A stretch of 25,711 bases of DNA, taken from positions 1-25,711 of the IMG/VR virus record IMGVR_UViG_3300042344_000204; one strand, 5' to 3'. The notes beneath the pieces are model-generated. The model ran no database searches and was not told the DNA's origin. It saw only the letters and a list, made by a program, of their open reading frames with translations. Positions 10,630-23,073 of this stretch are shown here, one piece after another. Every line of letters begins with the position of its first letter. The first letter of the stretch is position 1. A program made the translations under genes and the position numbers. This stretch comes from a virus.

Positions 10630-11073
10630 ATGGCTGGTCAAACTGGTCTTACATGGGCTTTAAGCGTTAGAACAGCAGCTACGCCTACATATACGGCAAT
10701 AGCAGGGATTCGTACTCGTAGCTTTAAAATTAATAATAACCCGGTTGATGTTACAACGGCTGAATCAACTGGCCGTTGGCGTGAACTACTTGGCGATACT
10801 GGAATTGTTGAGCTTGAGATTGACGCTAGTGGTCTTTACCAGAAAGACGCTCCGGGTCATCTTCTTCCGTCGCTAGTTGTTTCTGGCGCTTCAACGATAT
10901 TCCAACTTGTGTCTGCTTCTACCTCTGCAGGCATTACGATTGTTGGCTCGTTCATCGTTAGTGAATACGAGGCAGCAGCCACTTACAATGAGGCCGCGAC
11001 CTTCACGGTTAAGTTGATGTCAACTGGCGCTCCAACCATCACTTATAGCCCGGTTGCTACGACTCCGGCCTAA
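10630..11073 (+). CDS. major tail tube protein, copy 1
   Basis: 147 aa, TP901-1/phiE125-type major tail protein. Landmarks: 'IAGIRTRSFKINNNPVDVTT' (24-43), 'WRELLGDTGIVELEIDASGL' (50-69) and the C-terminal 'YNEAATFTVKLMSTGAPTIT'. It should polymerise into the tail tube around the tape measure. A near-ideal AAAGGAGTG precedes the ATG, fitting a protein needed in many copies. A paralogue follows after 35 nt and shares almost the whole length, differing mainly by one inserted domain. Confidence 0.88.
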   Translation: MAGQTGLTWALSVRTAATPTYTAIAGIRTRSFKINNNPVDVTTAESTGRWRELLGDTGIVELEIDASGLYQKDAPGHLLPSLVVSGASTIFQLVSASTSAGITIVGSFIVSEYEAAATYNEAATFTVKLMSTGAPTITYSPVATTPA

Positions 11074-11108: not shown

Positions 11109-11789
11109 ATGGCAGGCCAGACAGGAGCGCTTTTCGCGCTAGGCGTGAGAACGACAGGCGGGGGCTCTCCTGTCTATACTAACATTGCTGGCCTTAGAAC
11201 AAGATCGTTTAAGATCAGCAATAATCCTGTTGATGTTACAACTTCGCCAAATGCGTTTTTCTCGTGTTTGGCTACTATCGCATCATCTTCTGTAACGCTT
11301 CCAACCACGTTTTCCGATGGATCATCAGTCTCAACTGTGACTGGCTTTTACATAGGCGAAAACATTATCGTTGGTGGCGTTGCTTATCCTGTTACTGCCT
11401 ATAATGGTGGAACGCGAGTAGCTACTGTCACAGGAACGCCAACAGCCGGAAGTCAGTCAATTCAGATTGGAAACCCGGCATCAACGGATAATTGGCGCGA
11501 GCTTCTTGGTGATACAGGAACTGTTGAGCTAGAGATTTCTGCCGCTGGCCTTTATCAAAAAGATGCGCCAACACATTTGCTTCCTACGCTCGTTGCTTCT
11601 GGAGCAGATCAGGTATTTAGATTGGTTTCTAGTAATGTAACGCCCGGCATTACGATTGTGGGTAGTTTTGAAGTTACTGAATATGAGATGACGGCGACAT
11701 ATAATGAAGCTGTAACCTTCACTGTAAAGCTGATGTCAACCACTTCACCAACAATTACTTATAATCCTGCGGCGACAACCCCTGCTTAA
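11109..11789 (+). CDS. major tail tube protein paralogue, copy 2 with inserted domain
   Basis: 226 aa, a paralogue of the gene before it: same start (MAGQTG), same 'GLRTRSFKISNNPVDVTT' (28-45), 'WRELLGDTGTVELEISAAGL' (129-148), 'LYQKDAPTHLLPTLVASGA' and C-terminus. Between VDVTT and WRELL, where copy 1 has only about six residues, it carries about 80 extra residues (46-127). This Ser/Thr/Gly-rich beta stretch contains 'GFYIGENIIVGGVAYPVTAY' and resembles small beta domains found as surface insertions in phage structural proteins. The tube may be mixed, or this copy may serve a special position. Ribosome site GAGG; codon choice differs widely from copy 1, so the duplication is old. Confidence 0.87.
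   Translation: MAGQTGALFALGVRTTGGGSPVYTNIAGLRTRSFKISNNPVDVTTSPNAFFSCLATIASSSVTLPTTFSDGSSVSTVTGFYIGENIIVGGVAYPVTAYNGGTRVATVTGTPTAGSQSIQIGNPASTDNWRELLGDTGTVELEISAAGLYQKDAPTHLLPTLVASGADQVFRLVSSNVTPGITIVGSFEVTEYEMTATYNEAVTFTVKLMSTTSPTITYNPAATTPA
11244..11489 (+). other. inserted domain in tail tube copy 2
   Basis: Approximate DNA limits of the extra segment between the shared VDVTT and WRELLGDTG blocks. Its position is inferred by eye-aligning the two adjacent tail tube proteins. It encodes a Thr/Ser/Gly-rich beta-like domain ending in 'IQIGNPASTD'. Confidence 0.75.
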
Positions 11790-11799
11790 TTGAGGCTTT

Positions 11800-12174
11800 A
11801 TGGCTAATAGAGCGCGTGGTTATGCCGATGTATGTATCGGCAATGAAACATTTGAACTTGCTTTTGGTTTAGGCGTTTTAGCTGAAATCGAAAGCGAGTT
11901 TGATGTTGAATCATTTGAAGAGGCGCTTGACTTTGGAGACAAGGTTAGCGCCTCACGGCTTCGCAAACTCATGTTTGCGTTGTTGCGTGGAAATGAAGTT
12001 GAGCTAACGCCAGAACGCCGCAGGGCAGTCGATATGATGTCTCCTGCTGACTTTATGGAAAAGCTAACAGCCATAACTGGTTCATCTCCATTAACGCAGC
12101 AGCAAACACAAGAGCCAAAAGAAAAGGCGACCAAAACCCCTTTTCGGGCAAGGAACGCTGGCAGACGTGGATGA
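11800..12174 (+). CDS. tail assembly chaperone, upstream frame (GTA gp10-like)
   Basis: 124 aa. 'NETFELAFGLGVLAEIESEF' (15-34) followed by 'ASRLRKLMFALLRGNEVELT' (50-70) and 'ADFMEKLTAI' is the pattern of GTA-gp10-type tail proteins, which act as tape-measure chaperones. After residue 95 the sequence becomes a Gln/Lys-rich linker. The stop forms an ATGA overlap with the next gene. A slippery heptamer at 12138-12144 would allow a -1 shift into that next frame, giving a longer chaperone as in the lambda G/GT pair. GAGG precedes the ATG by about 6 nt. Confidence 0.82.
   Translation: MANRARGYADVCIGNETFELAFGLGVLAEIESEFDVESFEEALDFGDKVSASRLRKLMFALLRGNEVELTPERRRAVDMMSPADFMEKLTAITGSSPLTQQQTQEPKEKATKTPFRARNAGRRG
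12138..12144 (+). promoter_or_regulatory. candidate -1 programmed frameshift site C CCT TTT
   Basis: CCCTTTT fits X XXY YYZ in the frame of the upstream chaperone (zero-frame codons CCT at 12139, TTT at 12142). A -1 slip keeps pairing as CCC TTT and continues at TCG (12144), reading SGKERWQTW into the downstream gene's frame. That frame is open from 12051 to 12377 and has no ATG before 12171. The fusion would be 192 aa. A perfect 7-bp hairpin GTTAGGC/GCCTAAC lies at 12182-12202, further away than the usual 5-9 nt spacing of stimulatory structures. Confidence 0.7.
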
Positions 12175-12377
12175 AATTAGGGTTAGGCCATTTACGCCTA
12201 ACGCCTGACGCCTTTTGGCGCATGACGCTGACAGAGTTCTTCGCAGCTATTGACGGATATTTAGAAAGCAAGGGCGTCCGTAAGGGCGGGGGCGAATTAG
12301 AAGCGCCAACGTCTGAAGAAGTCGAAGCCCTATTTGCTGAATTAAACAAACAAAACAAGCAGGAACAAAATGGCTGA
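12171..12377 (+). CDS. tail assembly chaperone, downstream frame (phage TAC-like)
   Basis: 68 aa if it starts at the ATG at 12171 (ATGA overlap with the preceding stop). 'LGLGHLRLTPDAFWRMTLTE' (3-22) and 'FFAAIDGYL' match the small tail assembly chaperones that follow GTA gp10-like genes. In that family this motif is usually preceded by extra residues including a Trp; here those residues (ERWQTW) are encoded in the same frame upstream of the ATG and would be reached by the -1 frameshift from the preceding gene. It overlaps the tape-measure gene by 8 nt, which fits a role in keeping the tape measure soluble. Confidence 0.82.
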   Translation: MKLGLGHLRLTPDAFWRMTLTEFFAAIDGYLESKGVRKGGGELEAPTSEEVEALFAELNKQNKQEQNG

Positions 12378-14334
12378 AGCTGTTGCCGGAAGTCTCGTAT
12401 ATCAGTTTAAAGCTGATATTGCAGATTTAAAGAACGGCTTTGCCAATATTCAGACTGAGCTATCTAAGGTAAAGTCTGGTATTGGAACTGTTAATGATAA
12501 TTTTAAAAGTGTTGGCAAGGGCGCCTCAGAAAGCATTGGTCTTGCCAGACATGAAATGATTAATTTGTCTCGCCAAGTTGCAGACGTCGGCGTTAGTCTT
12601 GCTAGTGGTCAAAGTCCTTTTATGGTTTTGATTCAGCAAGGCGCTCAGATAAAGGATGTATTTTCTTCTAGTAAGGCTACATTTGCAGGATTAGCAGCAC
12701 AATTCATTACTGTCGGCAATATAGCAAAGATTGCCGCGCTTGGAATTGTCTCTATAGGCGCTGCTGCCTACTCAAGCCTTTCTAACTTAGAAAAGCTATC
12801 TGAGACAGCTAAGACGCTCGGAACAAATACACAGGCGCTTAGAGGGTTTAATCGTCAGGCATCTATTTTAGGCGTTGATCCTAAAGAATTAAATGAGCAA
12901 ATGGTCGCTCTTGCGCAACGAATACGCGAGGCGCAAACATCTGGCGGCGAATTAGCTGAAAAACTTGGCCGGATTGGCATTAATATAAAATCATTTGATC
13001 TAAGTAAGCCCGGCGAGTTTGCTCGGTTATTTGCTGAAATTGCGGAAAAGGTTCGCAATGGATCAAATGAAATTGATAAGTTAAATGCTTTAAAACTAAT
13101 CGGCTTTTCTTCTGAAATGCTTCGCGTATTTAGTGAGGGCGGGGCAGCGATTGATACATTTGTTAATAAATCTCGAGACGCCGCAGAAAATTCCACCACA
13201 CCTATTCGTGATAAGTGGAAAGAATTAAGAACATTATGGGATGAAATAGCAAATGCAATAGGTCAAAAATCTATTGATATTATTTCTAGCATTGTTGACT
13301 TTGTTAAAGATGCAATCAATCAAATAAATTCAGTTATAGATTATGTTAAAAGTAAATTTAACGAGCTTACAACATTTAAGTTTTCTGATGAAAAAGGGAT
13401 GGTTACAAACGGTGCCGGATCTTTAAGTAATTACGAAAACCGTTTAGGACTTCAAGATAAGCAAAAACTACCTGACATTAATATTAATGCGGCTTCTAAA
13501 CCAAAATCTGTCGATCTAAGTGGAATTTACAGCCTGCCCAAATCAAAAATGGATAAAGGCGTAGGTTCTCAAGTTGATCCATTAAAATCTTATATTGATA
13601 GCCTTAAAGAAGCCGCCGCAGTTTCTAAAGCAGAGGCAGATAATTGGGCGCTTGGTAATGTCGAAAAGGCAAAAGCTGAAGCACTCGCTAAAGCTAACGT
13701 CATTGCATCAAGAGAAGGTAAGACGCTTACCGATGGTATGCGCGATACAATTACGCAGTATGCAACGGGCGCTGCACAAGCAAAACTTCAAGTAGACAAT
13801 TTAAGAACGGCTCAGCAGGGGCTTAACCAGCTAATGAGCCAATTTGCTGATACAGCTATAAATGCCTTTGATGGTCTTATGGATCGCAGCAAGCGCATAA
13901 CAGATGTGTTGCGTGACCTAGTTAAAATGCTGGCTAATAACGCTTTAAAGGGCGCTTTAACGGGCGACGGCGCTTTTGGTCAGATGATGGGATTAGGCGG
14001 CAAAAACGGTAATACAGGTGGAATTTTGGGAATGCTTGGCGGCGCGGCAAAGTCGATGTTCGCAGGTTATTTTGCAGAAGGCGGGTCTATTCCATCTGGC
14101 AAATGGGGCATAGCTGGAGAAGCAGGGCCAGAGCTCATTCAAGGCCCGGCAAATATCATCCCTATGAATAATAATGGTGGATCTAAAATCACCATTCATA
14201 ATTATGCCAATGCCGAAGTTGATGCACGTCAAATGAGTGACGGGCAGATCATTGTGACTGTGCAAAAGATGATCAAAGACGGTTTGCGTCAGGTTCCGAA
14301 TATAATGGCTGAAGCACAACGGCGGTCTATTTAA
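12370..14334 (+). CDS. tail tape measure protein
   Basis: 654 aa. The N-terminal 60 residues are helical (YQFKADIADLKNGFANIQTE), followed by 'ARHEMINLSRQVADVGVSLA' and 'SPFMVLIQQGAQIKDVF' (about 60-98), the lambda-type tape-measure block, and a hydrophobic stretch about 104-137. A long helical, AT-rich, Lys/Asn-rich middle follows. Near the C-terminus 'FAEGGSIPSGKWGIAGEAGP' and 'ELIQGPANIIP' is the typical closing motif. It sets tail length and is expelled at infection. At about 0.15 nm per residue it predicts a tail near 100 nm (inference). The start overlaps the chaperone gene by 8 nt. Confidence 0.93.
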   Translation: MAEAVAGSLVYQFKADIADLKNGFANIQTELSKVKSGIGTVNDNFKSVGKGASESIGLARHEMINLSRQVADVGVSLASGQSPFMVLIQQGAQIKDVFSSSKATFAGLAAQFITVGNIAKIAALGIVSIGAAAYSSLSNLEKLSETAKTLGTNTQALRGFNRQASILGVDPKELNEQMVALAQRIREAQTSGGELAEKLGRIGINIKSFDLSKPGEFARLFAEIAEKVRNGSNEIDKLNALKLIGFSSEMLRVFSEGGAAIDTFVNKSRDAAENSTTPIRDKWKELRTLWDEIANAIGQKSIDIISSIVDFVKDAINQINSVIDYVKSKFNELTTFKFSDEKGMVTNGAGSLSNYENRLGLQDKQKLPDININAASKPKSVDLSGIYSLPKSKMDKGVGSQVDPLKSYIDSLKEAAAVSKAEADNWALGNVEKAKAEALAKANVIASREGKTLTDGMRDTITQYATGAAQAKLQVDNLRTAQQGLNQLMSQFADTAINAFDGLMDRSKRITDVLRDLVKMLANNALKGALTGDGAFGQMMGLGGKNGNTGGILGMLGGAAKSMFAGYFAEGGSIPSGKWGIAGEAGPELIQGPANIIPMNNNGGSKITIHNYANAEVDARQMSDGQIIVTVQKMIKDGLRQVPNIMAEAQRRSI

Positions 14335-15673: not shown

Positions 15674-16029
15674 CGCTCGATCCCATTGCCTTTGCACGTT
15701 CACAGAAAACAAAGATCACTCCTTGTTATTCGCTCGTTTATGCGTGGCTAAAAGCTCACGGGGTAAACGAAACGCCTAGCGATAGCCAATCCCGCCGCTG
15801 GTGGATTGCTTTTGGTTCTGAACAAGGAATGGTCAAAGCCGCAGAATACATGAGCTTAACTTATTCAGAGGGTAAGCCGGGTGATGTCGCTGTCTTTGAT
15901 CAGCCGGGAAATGCGCCAATCTTAGGCGTTTTAGCTGAAAATGGTTTTGGCGTGGTGCGTTCATTTGGACGATTGGCTGTTTGGAAACCGACTATTCTCC
16001 GCGCTTGGGGGCTTACTTGGGAAAAGTAA
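15670..16029 (+). CDS. NlpC/P60-position tail protein (DUF6950-like)
   Basis: 119 aa from the ATG at 15670, which overlaps the previous stop (ATGA); a TTG at 15661 is the less likely alternative. 'KITPCYSLVYAWLKAHGVNE' (15-34) is the helix that carries the nucleophilic Cys in this fold, and 'SEGKPGDVAVF' then 'PILGVLAENGFGVVR' gives the 'PGDV...LGVL' core. The usual DC before the helix is PC here, and the catalytic His strand has no His. In GTA-like tails the gene in this place encodes a cell-wall peptidase. This copy looks like the degenerate DUF6950 type and may be structural rather than enzymatic. Confidence 0.68.
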   Translation: MTLDPIAFARSQKTKITPCYSLVYAWLKAHGVNETPSDSQSRRWWIAFGSEQGMVKAAEYMSLTYSEGKPGDVAVFDQPGNAPILGVLAENGFGVVRSFGRLAVWKPTILRAWGLTWEK

Positions 16030-20013: not shown

Positions 20014-20052
20014 AAGAGGGCGCGTCTGGAATCAGGCGCGTATTTTTGTATG
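20014..20052 (+). promoter_or_regulatory. hairpin between Shine-Dalgarno-like site and fibre start codon (or terminator)
   Basis: AAGAGGG (20014-20020) is followed directly by an 8-bp hairpin, CGCGTCTG (20021-20028) / CAGGCGCG (20033-20040) with one G-T wobble and a GAAT loop, then TATTTTTGT and the ATG at 20050. If the hairpin is looped out, AGAGGG lies 9 nt from the ATG, an ideal spacing. As plain sequence it is also a stem plus T-run, so it may be an intrinsic terminator. No other Shine-Dalgarno precedes this gene. Confidence 0.6.
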
Positions 20053-23000
20053 AGCGGAACATCTGCGTTAATGCTGACAAATCGTGGCTATCCGACGCCA
20101 GAAGTTTCTGCCATATTCGCTAAAAATGGATTTGATTGGCAGACGCTTCCTACGCTAACTTCTATGCCATCTGGCGGCTCTATTAACCGTTCTGGCAATG
20201 CAACCCTGTATGATAGCACTGGCAAGCTGACGTATGCGCCGAATAATATACTTACTTATTCGCAGCAATTCGACAACGCTGCTTGGGGCAAGGCAAATGT
20301 TTCTATAACAGCCGACACAACAACGGCTCCAGATGGAACAACAACTGCTGATAAAATCGTTGAAAACACGGCAAATGGCACACATCAAATTTGGCAAAAT
20401 TATTCTACGGCTTCTCCTGGTAATTATCTGTTTTCGTTTTACGCCAAGCCATCTGGAAGAAATCGGGCCTGGGTTACAATTTCCAATACGACAACGGGCG
20501 GGGCAAACGTAACCTTTGATTTTTCATCTGGAACTATAGCGACTGCCGCAGCAAACGGTGGAGATTTTACTAATGCTGTTGCTACGATAACCTCTGCTGG
20601 TAATGGTTGGTATAGATGTTCAATATCTGCTACAAAAGGCATTTCAAACTCAAATGTTTGGCCTTACATATTCTTAGATAATGGAAGTGGCGTAACTTAC
20701 ACAGGCGACGGAACGTCTGGCCTATTTGTCTGGGGCGCTCAACTAGAGATCGTCACCTACCAAACAACCCCATCCACTTATGTAGCGACAACTACAGCCG
20801 CCTACTACGGCCCTCGCTTTGATTACAACCCATCAACGCTTGCTGCTAAAGGCTTGCTGATTGAGGGGACGAGAACGAATTTAATTAATTATAGCGAGCA
20901 ATTAGATAATGCTTTTTGGGCTAAAACAGGATCAACAATAACAATAAATAATACGATATCACCAGATGGGACTAATAGCGCAGATAAAATTGTTGAGGAC
21001 ACATCAACGGGCATTCACACTGCGCACAACGTCTGTGCTTCAACCTCTAACAATATACACTCAGCATCATTCTTTGCAAAAGCCGCTGAACGCACGTTTA
21101 TATCTGTTCAGTTTGATAACGGGTCAACCGCTGGCGCGATTGGTGTAGTAAACCTTACAACTGGCGCGGTGACAAGTATTGCGGGAACGGGAAACCCTGT
21201 ATTTAATGTTGTTTCTGTCGGAAATGGATGGTGGAGAATTACAGTTGTATGTATTCCCGCAACTTCTGGCACTACAGTCAGATTATTAATATATTTAAAT
21301 AATGGTTCAGTGGCAAGTTACACTGGCAACGGCACGTCTGGGGCATATATTTGGGGCGCTCAAATAGAGCAAGCCAGTTTCCCGTCAAGCTACATTCCTA
21401 CAGCCACATCAACCTCTCGCGCCGCAGAAACCTTCGCCATTACTGGCTATAGCTCAAGCCTCATCAACGCATATTATATTGACGAGGCGACTGGCGTATC
21501 ATCTAGCTTACCGTATAACGCTGGCACCGCGCCTAGCCCGTCGTTCTCTTGGCTGACATCGTTAAGGCCATATACGAACGCATACGCTGGTAGCATAGCC
21601 TCGCCTAGCTGGCTGTCATTTAGCCGCGCTGGTAACGCGATGATGACGGATAGCACTGGTGAGTTGACCTACGCTCCAAATAACTTGCTGCTTAATACAG
21701 CAACATTATCTACACAGAGCGTTACAACGGCAGCTATTAGGTATGTTCTGTCGTTTAAAGGCACAGGCTCAGTTGCTCTTAGCGGCGCTTATACTGGCTC
21801 ATTAGCTGGAACTGGCGCATCTAATCGTGTTGCTCTTGCTTTTACATCTACCGCCGCAAGCCTGACACTCACCGTCACAGGAACGGTAACAGAAGCACAG
21901 CTAGAAGCTGTTACGTATGAGACACAACCAAGTCTGTATGTTGCGAACACATCCGCTGCTTACTACGGCCCCCGCTACGACTTCGACTCTTCTACTGTTC
22001 CAGCAACGCCGAGAGGATTGCTAATTGAGGAGAGTAGGACGAATTTAGTAACGTATAGTGAGCAGTTTGATAATGCGGCTTGGAGTAAGGTTAACTCAAC
22101 AATATCTGCAAATGCAACAACTGCACCTGATGGAACGGTAACAGCAGATAAGTTAGTAGAAAACACAGCTACCGCCAATCATGTTATGAATAGGTCAAAC
22201 CCAATTACTGTTGCAGCAAATACTTTGCATACTCTTACAGTCTATGCAAAGGCTGCTGAACGAACATCAATACAGCTTTTGTTAGTAAGTGGCACTTATA
22301 TGGCTGGCGTAAGCTATTTCTTTAATTTGTCTAATGGGACTGTATCTGCGCCAGCAATAACAGGTTCAACAGCAATCTATTCTAGTTCTATAACATCAGT
22401 CGGGAATGGATGGTATAGATGCGTTGTTACAGCTATTGTTGATACTACTTCAACTTCTATAAATTGGAACACTTCTATTTTAAGTGGAACTTCTACTACT
22501 GTTTACACTGGCGACGGCACATCTGGATTATTCATATGGGGCGCGCAATTAGAAGTCGGTTCTTTCCCAACAAGCTACATCCCCACAGTAGCCGCAAGCG
22601 TTACGAGAGCGGCTGATGTCGCACAATTGACAGGTAGTGCGCTGACGGCAATAGGAGGCACTAGCGTTTCTGCTATTGCTGAAATTGGCGGCACAAATAC
22701 ACCTTATGCTCAGATATTTACGCCAAACGGCGCTGTCACGTTGATAGGCAATTATGGCTCATCAACAACGCAAATATACGCCCTTAAATCAGACGCTACA
22801 AATTTGATTGCAACTGTAGGTTCTGGAAACACAACATCAACTTTTAGAAGCGCAGCTTCTTTTAATGCAAGCAGTATGAGCTTGGTCGCAAACAATGGAA
22901 CCGTTGCTACGGCTGTTTTAGGTTTTCAAGGAGCGCCAATAACAACTTGTAGATTGGGAAGCGCATCATCTGGGTTCTACATCAATAGTTGGTATCGCTC

Positions 23001-23073
23001 TTTGGGCCTATACAACCAGAAATTACCAGACGCCATTCTTAAACAAAAATCCTCCGTAGGAGCGCCATACTAA
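20050..23073 (+). CDS. giant modular tail fibre with duplicated carbohydrate-binding-like modules
   Basis: 1007 aa. Two large units (about 41-460 and 516-856) share one order: 'SR(A/S)GNA---DSTG-LTYAPNN', a lectin-like beta module, 'AAYYGPR-D', 'GLLIE--RTNL--YSEQ-DNA-W', a second lectin-like module with 'YTG(D/N)GTSG---WGAQ-E', and 'SYIPT----(S/T)RAA'. Full modules lie at about 66-240, 277-450 and 665-846; the third in order (545-625) is shortened to about half. The last 150 residues form a ConA-like tip ending 'FYINSWYRSLGLYNQKLPDA'. This fits sugar-binding jelly-roll modules that recognise cell-surface glycans. The stop overlaps the next ATG (TAATG). Confidence 0.88.
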   Translation: MSGTSALMLTNRGYPTPEVSAIFAKNGFDWQTLPTLTSMPSGGSINRSGNATLYDSTGKLTYAPNNILTYSQQFDNAAWGKANVSITADTTTAPDGTTTADKIVENTANGTHQIWQNYSTASPGNYLFSFYAKPSGRNRAWVTISNTTTGGANVTFDFSSGTIATAAANGGDFTNAVATITSAGNGWYRCSISATKGISNSNVWPYIFLDNGSGVTYTGDGTSGLFVWGAQLEIVTYQTTPSTYVATTTAAYYGPRFDYNPSTLAAKGLLIEGTRTNLINYSEQLDNAFWAKTGSTITINNTISPDGTNSADKIVEDTSTGIHTAHNVCASTSNNIHSASFFAKAAERTFISVQFDNGSTAGAIGVVNLTTGAVTSIAGTGNPVFNVVSVGNGWWRITVVCIPATSGTTVRLLIYLNNGSVASYTGNGTSGAYIWGAQIEQASFPSSYIPTATSTSRAAETFAITGYSSSLINAYYIDEATGVSSSLPYNAGTAPSPSFSWLTSLRPYTNAYAGSIASPSWLSFSRAGNAMMTDSTGELTYAPNNLLLNTATLSTQSVTTAAIRYVLSFKGTGSVALSGAYTGSLAGTGASNRVALAFTSTAASLTLTVTGTVTEAQLEAVTYETQPSLYVANTSAAYYGPRYDFDSSTVPATPRGLLIEESRTNLVTYSEQFDNAAWSKVNSTISANATTAPDGTVTADKLVENTATANHVMNRSNPITVAANTLHTLTVYAKAAERTSIQLLLVSGTYMAGVSYFFNLSNGTVSAPAITGSTAIYSSSITSVGNGWYRCVVTAIVDTTSTSINWNTSILSGTSTTVYTGDGTSGLFIWGAQLEVGSFPTSYIPTVAASVTRAADVAQLTGSALTAIGGTSVSAIAEIGGTNTPYAQIFTPNGAVTLIGNYGSSTTQIYALKSDATNLIATVGSGNTTSTFRSAASFNASSMSLVANNGTVATAVLGFQGAPITTCRLGSASSGFYINSWYRSLGLYNQKLPDAILKQKSSVGAPY
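20170..22617 (+). repeat. duplicated superunit in the fibre gene
   Basis: In-frame repeat units at about 20170-21429 and 21595-22617 encode the same module order. Related short blocks recur four times, for example the 'TGDGTSG...WGAQLE' block at about 20701, 21325 and 22507, and a degenerate 'TEAQLE' copy at about 21890. DNA similarity is partial, so the repeats are old and diverged rather than recent. Confidence 0.75.

Follow-up and report, generated by a model that had tools for sequence, protein, structure and literature searches.

Tail operon and chaperone genes

The window analysed here (25,711 bases) is an entire IMG/VR virus record and contains two overlapping tail-assembly chaperone frames between the genes for a tail tube protein (PF06199) and a tape measure protein (PF06791), the standard order of a tail operon. 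The features of the locus are as follows.

11109–11789, plus strand: tail tube protein, the upstream neighbour (PF06199, 4.8e-14)
11800–12174, plus strand: gene 1, a gpG-like tail assembly chaperone of 124 aa (GTA-gp10 / Phage_TAC_11-like; PF11836, phrog_2115 and AlphaFold model)
12051–12377, plus strand: open stretch in the −1 frame with a TAC_6 domain (PF09550, 1.3e-10), proposed to be expressed from 12144 via a shift
12120–12127, plus strand: Shine-Dalgarno-like AGAAAAGG, a probable frameshift stimulator (peak of anti-SD pairing across 21 loci)
12138–12144, plus strand: slippery heptamer C CCT TTT (phase read directly; CCCTTTN kept in 21/21 distinct relatives, with invariant codons)
12171–12377, plus strand: shorter ORF from ATG 12171, which may give a minor product by re-initiation (the ATG and the stop of gene 1 overlap as ATGA)
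12182–12202, plus strand: hairpin that folds in the window, not conserved and probably irrelevant to the shift
12370–14334, plus strand: tape measure protein, the downstream neighbour (PF06791, 8.9e-21; phrog_8892, 3.6e-24)

A preliminary description of this DNA had placed the open −1 frame at 12051–12377 and the heptamer at 12138–12144, and we confirm these and its other coordinates. The tail tube gene is one of two adjacent tail tube genes in the window (10630–11073 and 11109–11789), both flanks of which are 70% identical and the second of which carries an insertion of ~75 residues relative to the first; in a related phage sequence, MW202748, the chaperone is immediately preceded by a single tail tube gene, versus two in the window. 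Further downstream, an ORF of 1007 aa (20050–23073), probably a tail fibre, contains several module repeats, with a module start like NNILTYSQQFDNAAW. Scans for Rfam families and tRNA genes found nothing in the window.

The gene 1 protein of the window matched PF11836 with E = 0.0076 (16.7 bits, under the curated cut-off of 27.8), and the same profile matched all seven gene 1 family members tested at E ≤ 0.01 (best, 8.8e-9); the window protein also matched the phrog_2115 tail protein (1.2e-5). Its AlphaFold model has a mean pLDDT of 80, with values of <50 at residues 103–113, and according to the model the protein is ordered to approximately residue 100 and then continues as a disordered linker that contains the slip site. 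Searched against BFVD, the fold had a tail assembly chaperone as its top match (best E, 2.5e-3); a fold search against the PDB gave no match, and searches by sequence gave no credible match to a solved structure for either chaperone protein. We place gene 1 in the GTA-gp10 / Phage_TAC_11 group. The −1 frame stretch reached 42 bits against PF09550 (cut-off, 23.4), and gene 2 scored 43.7 bits against TIGR02216 (rcc01693 family), under the curated cut-off of 56.1. A PF11836-like protein and a PF09550 domain above cut-off, flanked by the genes for tail tube and tape measure proteins, bear out the earlier identification of a tail chaperone pair. A 19-base stretch in gene 1 (11869–11887) recurs identically in a later tail gene (15922–15940), probably by coincidence.

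A conserved slippery heptamer at the gene junction

The zero-frame codons at the proposed slip site are ACC CCT TTT CGG, and the heptamer thus has the phase C CCT TTT that had been assigned to it. The −1 frame, open from 12051 to 12377, contains no ATG before 12171, as noted previously, and also no GTG or TTG. A slip of one base would join 115 residues of gene 1 to 77 residues of the −1 frame, reading through ...TPFSGKERWQTWMKLGLGHLRL at the junction, and would yield the predicted fusion of 192 aa against 124 aa for the unshifted product. Heptamers of the form XXXYYYN (Y = A/T) occur at 2.6 per kb, from which we calculate a chance of roughly 10% for one in-phase heptamer in a 120-nt overlap; CCCTTT shows no enrichment within the window and is slightly rarer there than expected (9 occurrences versus 13.5 in shuffles). 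An in-phase heptamer in a single sequence is weak evidence alone, and the evidence for frameshifting is therefore comparative.

Relatives were collected using protein motifs that excluded the heptamer; once near-duplicates had been removed, the window's sub-family was represented by 21 distinct loci. All 21 keep both the open gene overlap and CCCTTTN in slip phase, contrary to the outcome that the preliminary description had named as a refutation, namely homologues without an open overlap or a slippery site. The last base of the heptamer varies among relatives (A, C, G or T), so that the zero frame encodes either Phe or Leu here, CCC TTT itself stays constant, and the −1 frame codons for Pro (CCC) and Phe (TTT) are invariant in 21/21 loci. 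This invariance is specific to the two codons: the −1 frame has 18 conserved-residue columns with synonymous alternatives, of which only CCC and TTT never vary and the other 16 do, and synonymous variation occurs in all 13 conserved-residue columns of gene 1. Given codon usage, the log10 probabilities of CCC and TTT invariance are −13.7 and −9.3, respectively, if lineages are independent, which they are not entirely. The nearest annotated relative, represented by GenBank entries MW202613 and MW202748 (Manatee Spring Caudoviricetes; 55% identity in gene 1 and 67% in gene 2), carries CCCTTTA in phase.

These comparisons leave little room for two explanations without ribosomal slippage. That the heptamer arose by chance in two decaying or mis-sequenced genes fits the lack of CCCTTT enrichment in the window and is contradicted by its conservation in 21 distinct loci and by the recurrence of the exact junction in L010 and L011, contigs that were assembled separately; we regard this as exceedingly improbable. 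Slippage of the transcribing polymerase at CCCCTTTT would draw on an 8-base two-letter run in the window. Transcriptional slippage requires longer single-base runs, however, and in the relatives the run is no longer than CCC TTT, the next base is mostly A, C or G, and the exact codon phase is kept, which makes this origin of the shift just as remote.

Evidence for translation of the −1 frame upstream of the internal ATG

Among relatives, divergence between the heptamer and the ATG is 0.31, 0.33 and 0.51 at the first, second and third bases of −1 frame codons, the same pattern as in the body of gene 2 (0.29, 0.27 and 0.57). The freest position in the overlap is the third base of the −1 frame, which is the second base of the zero frame. 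Judged from these substitutions, which follow the −1 frame, the overlap appears to be translated in that frame. The PF09550 match begins 5 residues upstream of ATG 12171, in agreement with the previous suggestion that the residues before this ATG are real family sequence, and conserved P, F, R, W and W residues stand before it in relatives. The predicted structures place the ATG midway along the first TAC_6 helix (residues 5–19), and the slip site where the disordered linker of gene 1 ends. The product of an ORF starting at ATG 12171 would thus be without the conserved PF..RW..W segment.

These data bear on translational coupling as the only mechanism, in which ribosomes would stop at TGA 12172 and restart at ATG 12171 to make a free TAC_6 protein of 68 aa with no frameshift. 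The window and most of its relatives have the ATGA overlap, and GenBank MW202748 annotates the chaperone pair in this way: MW202748.1 929–1491 (863–1425 in our locus L025) and MW202613.1 are annotated as two CDS, the second from an internal ATG, without a frameshift. However, the ATG splits the first predicted helix and lies downstream of both the start of the domain match and the conserved residues, and coupling leaves the invariant CCC TTT codons unexplained. The ATG is also missing from three relatives: its place is taken by CTC in L042, CTG in L051 (also recovered as L063) and CAA in L088. The first ATG, GTG or TTG in these loci comes 84 or 111 nt after the start of the heptamer, inside the domain, so that making the whole domain from a standard start codon requires the shift. 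M is common at this place in the family, so that retention of the ATG does not imply its use as a start. We consider coupling alone very unlikely. The annotation can be corrected for a group of environmental phages, in which the downstream gene appears to have been wrongly started at an internal ATG.

A combination, in which the −1 shift gives the fusion and re-initiation at ATG 12171 adds a minor free TAC_6 protein, is less improbable than coupling alone, and we still rate it as unlikely. In its favour, ATGA is retained in 17/21 loci, and bacteria commonly couple translation at such overlaps; the absence of the ATG from three relatives and the lack of a Shine-Dalgarno sequence at normal spacing for ATG 12171 (AAGGAA at 12150–12155 ends 15 nt before it) count against it.

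Elements flanking the heptamer

Across the 21 loci, pairing with the 16S rRNA tail (anti-SD) peaks in 8-nt windows that end 4–15 nt before the heptamer. The mean best energy of −7.24 kcal/mol compares with −4.35 for codon-order shuffles (0/400 as low) and with −5.85 for synonymous-codon shuffles (2/400 as low). The window's own element, AGAAAAGG (12120–12127), ends 10 nt before the heptamer and, at −3.5 kcal/mol, is weaker than those of most relatives. In bacterial dnaX and in insertion sequences, elements of this kind stimulate −1 shifting. This conserved element, absent from the preliminary description, lies >40 nt from ATG 12171 and is therefore unlikely to serve that ATG; it probably helps the slip.

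The hairpin that had been noted downstream of the heptamer does exist: a 7-bp stem (GTTAGGC/GCCTAAC at 12182–12188/12196–12202) folds stably in the window (z = −3.25). It has no counterpart in relatives, as no consensus structure was found downstream of the heptamer in 18 ungapped relatives and downstream pairing in relatives was no better than in shuffles. Frameshift stimulators usually lie 5–9 nt from the heptamer, and this hairpin lies 38 nt away. We therefore rejected it as a stimulator.

Proposed frameshift and its relation to known systems

On the combined evidence of gene overlap, heptamer phase, conservation, coding constraint in the −1 frame and upstream element, each of which is demonstrated by the aligned sequences, it is highly probable that the tail-assembly chaperone gene undergoes programmed −1 ribosomal frameshifting at CCCTTTT. 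We infer the occurrence of the shift, its efficiency and the roles of the two proteins as follows. Most ribosomes would read gene 1 to TGA 12172 and produce the 124-aa gpG-like chaperone. A minority, holding Pro-tRNA on CCT in the P site and Phe-tRNA on TTT in the A site, would slip back one base to CCC TTT, probably aided by mRNA–rRNA pairing ~10 nt upstream and not by the downstream hairpin, and would continue in the −1 frame to give the 192-aa fusion carrying the TAC_6 domain. By analogy with phage lambda, the short form may coat the tape measure protein, and recruitment of tail-tube subunits may fall to the rare long form. What began as a guess from a single sequence thus becomes a conserved, testable recoding site.

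Like lambda G/GT, the locus has two frames that overlap in the interval separating the tail-tube gene from the tape-measure gene, a proposed −1 slip close to where the first frame ends, and a short and a predicted long chaperone. The lambda heptamer is GGGAAAG, whereas the window has C CCT TTN with a Shine-Dalgarno-like element upstream. The window proteins belong to the PF11836 and PF09550 families, and the likeness to lambda is one of layout and proposed mechanism; we claim no sequence similarity to gpG/gpT. The lambda G/GT tail assembly chaperones have been reviewed (PMC5009743, citing Levin 1993 and Xu 2004). In an HK97-type tail chaperone cluster, defined by similarity to a phage HK97 protein and sharing gene slot and proposed mechanism with the window, reporter assays gave 6–7% frameshifting (PMC3711429). 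The Caulobacter phages phiCbK and Colossus, which infect Alphaproteobacteria, have annotated chaperone slip sites for a −1 shift before the tape measure gene (AAAAAAC and GGGAAAC, respectively; PMC3556154), with heptamers unlike that of the window. The mechanism has been known since lambda, and the comparisons strongly support the window's pair as a further case of it, one that brings a heptamer variant and a missed annotation.

Candidate interchangeable heptamers in the wider family

The same domain pair and gene order occur in the rcc01693 family, in which Phage_TAC_6 accompanies GTA-gp10 in gene transfer agents and alphaproteobacterial prophages; many members have an in-phase heptamer, and others use GGGAAAG/C or AAACCCT, or separate starts. 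In a wider set of more distant relatives, PF(P/S/G)W opens the second domain. Where gene 1 extends over this motif, PF is written CCC TTT (7/7 distant loci); where gene 1 has already ended before the motif, it is written CCG TTT, CCA TTT or CCC TTC (9/9 loci). This contrast of 7/7 versus 0/9 gives a Fisher p of ~9e-5, calculated by hand and with some of the nine loci closely related. Ratios of in-phase to out-of-phase sites in the wider set are 19:0 for GGGAAA, 10:0 for AAACCC and 7:0 for CCCTTT, with a few loci giving more than one site. Eleven loci of the set have no heptamer, and 8 of these have their own start codon upstream of the motif.

Alphaproteobacterial prophage or GTA-like loci (L096, L097, L098, L103, L104, L108, L131, L150 and others) have GGGAAAG/C in phase where gene 1 ends, and their second domain lies in the −1 frame. 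A GGGAAAC in L019 and L020 is far upstream and absent from sister loci, and was set aside as chance. AAACCCT is found in slip phase (zero frame, AAC CCT) at GTA-like TAC_6 junctions that have neither GGGAAA nor CCCTTT (L017, L018, L019, L020, L022, L028, L101, L113, L115 and L136), and at one of these sites a −1 frame stop directly precedes the heptamer. This sequence is a candidate third slippery heptamer, with Y = C.

We lean slightly towards viewing the GTA-gp10 / TAC_6 pairs of alphaproteobacterial phages and GTA-like prophages as one frameshifting family, in which GGGAAAG/C, CCCTTTN and AAACCCT would interchange at the junction and the slip site of the CCCTTTN branch would be the codon pair for PF(P/S)W of the second domain. 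Two of these heptamers are C-rich and unrecorded for the family in the accessible literature, in which we found no paper on CCCTTTN or AAACCCT in GTA-gp10 / TAC_6 pairs. The loci would amount to a natural collection of slippery heptamers that replace one another within a single gene family, and would allow C/U-rich heptamers to be compared with the lambda heptamer on alphaproteobacterial ribosomes. One locus (L139) has three successive in-phase GGGAAAG sites in a single gene 1–gene 2 linker.
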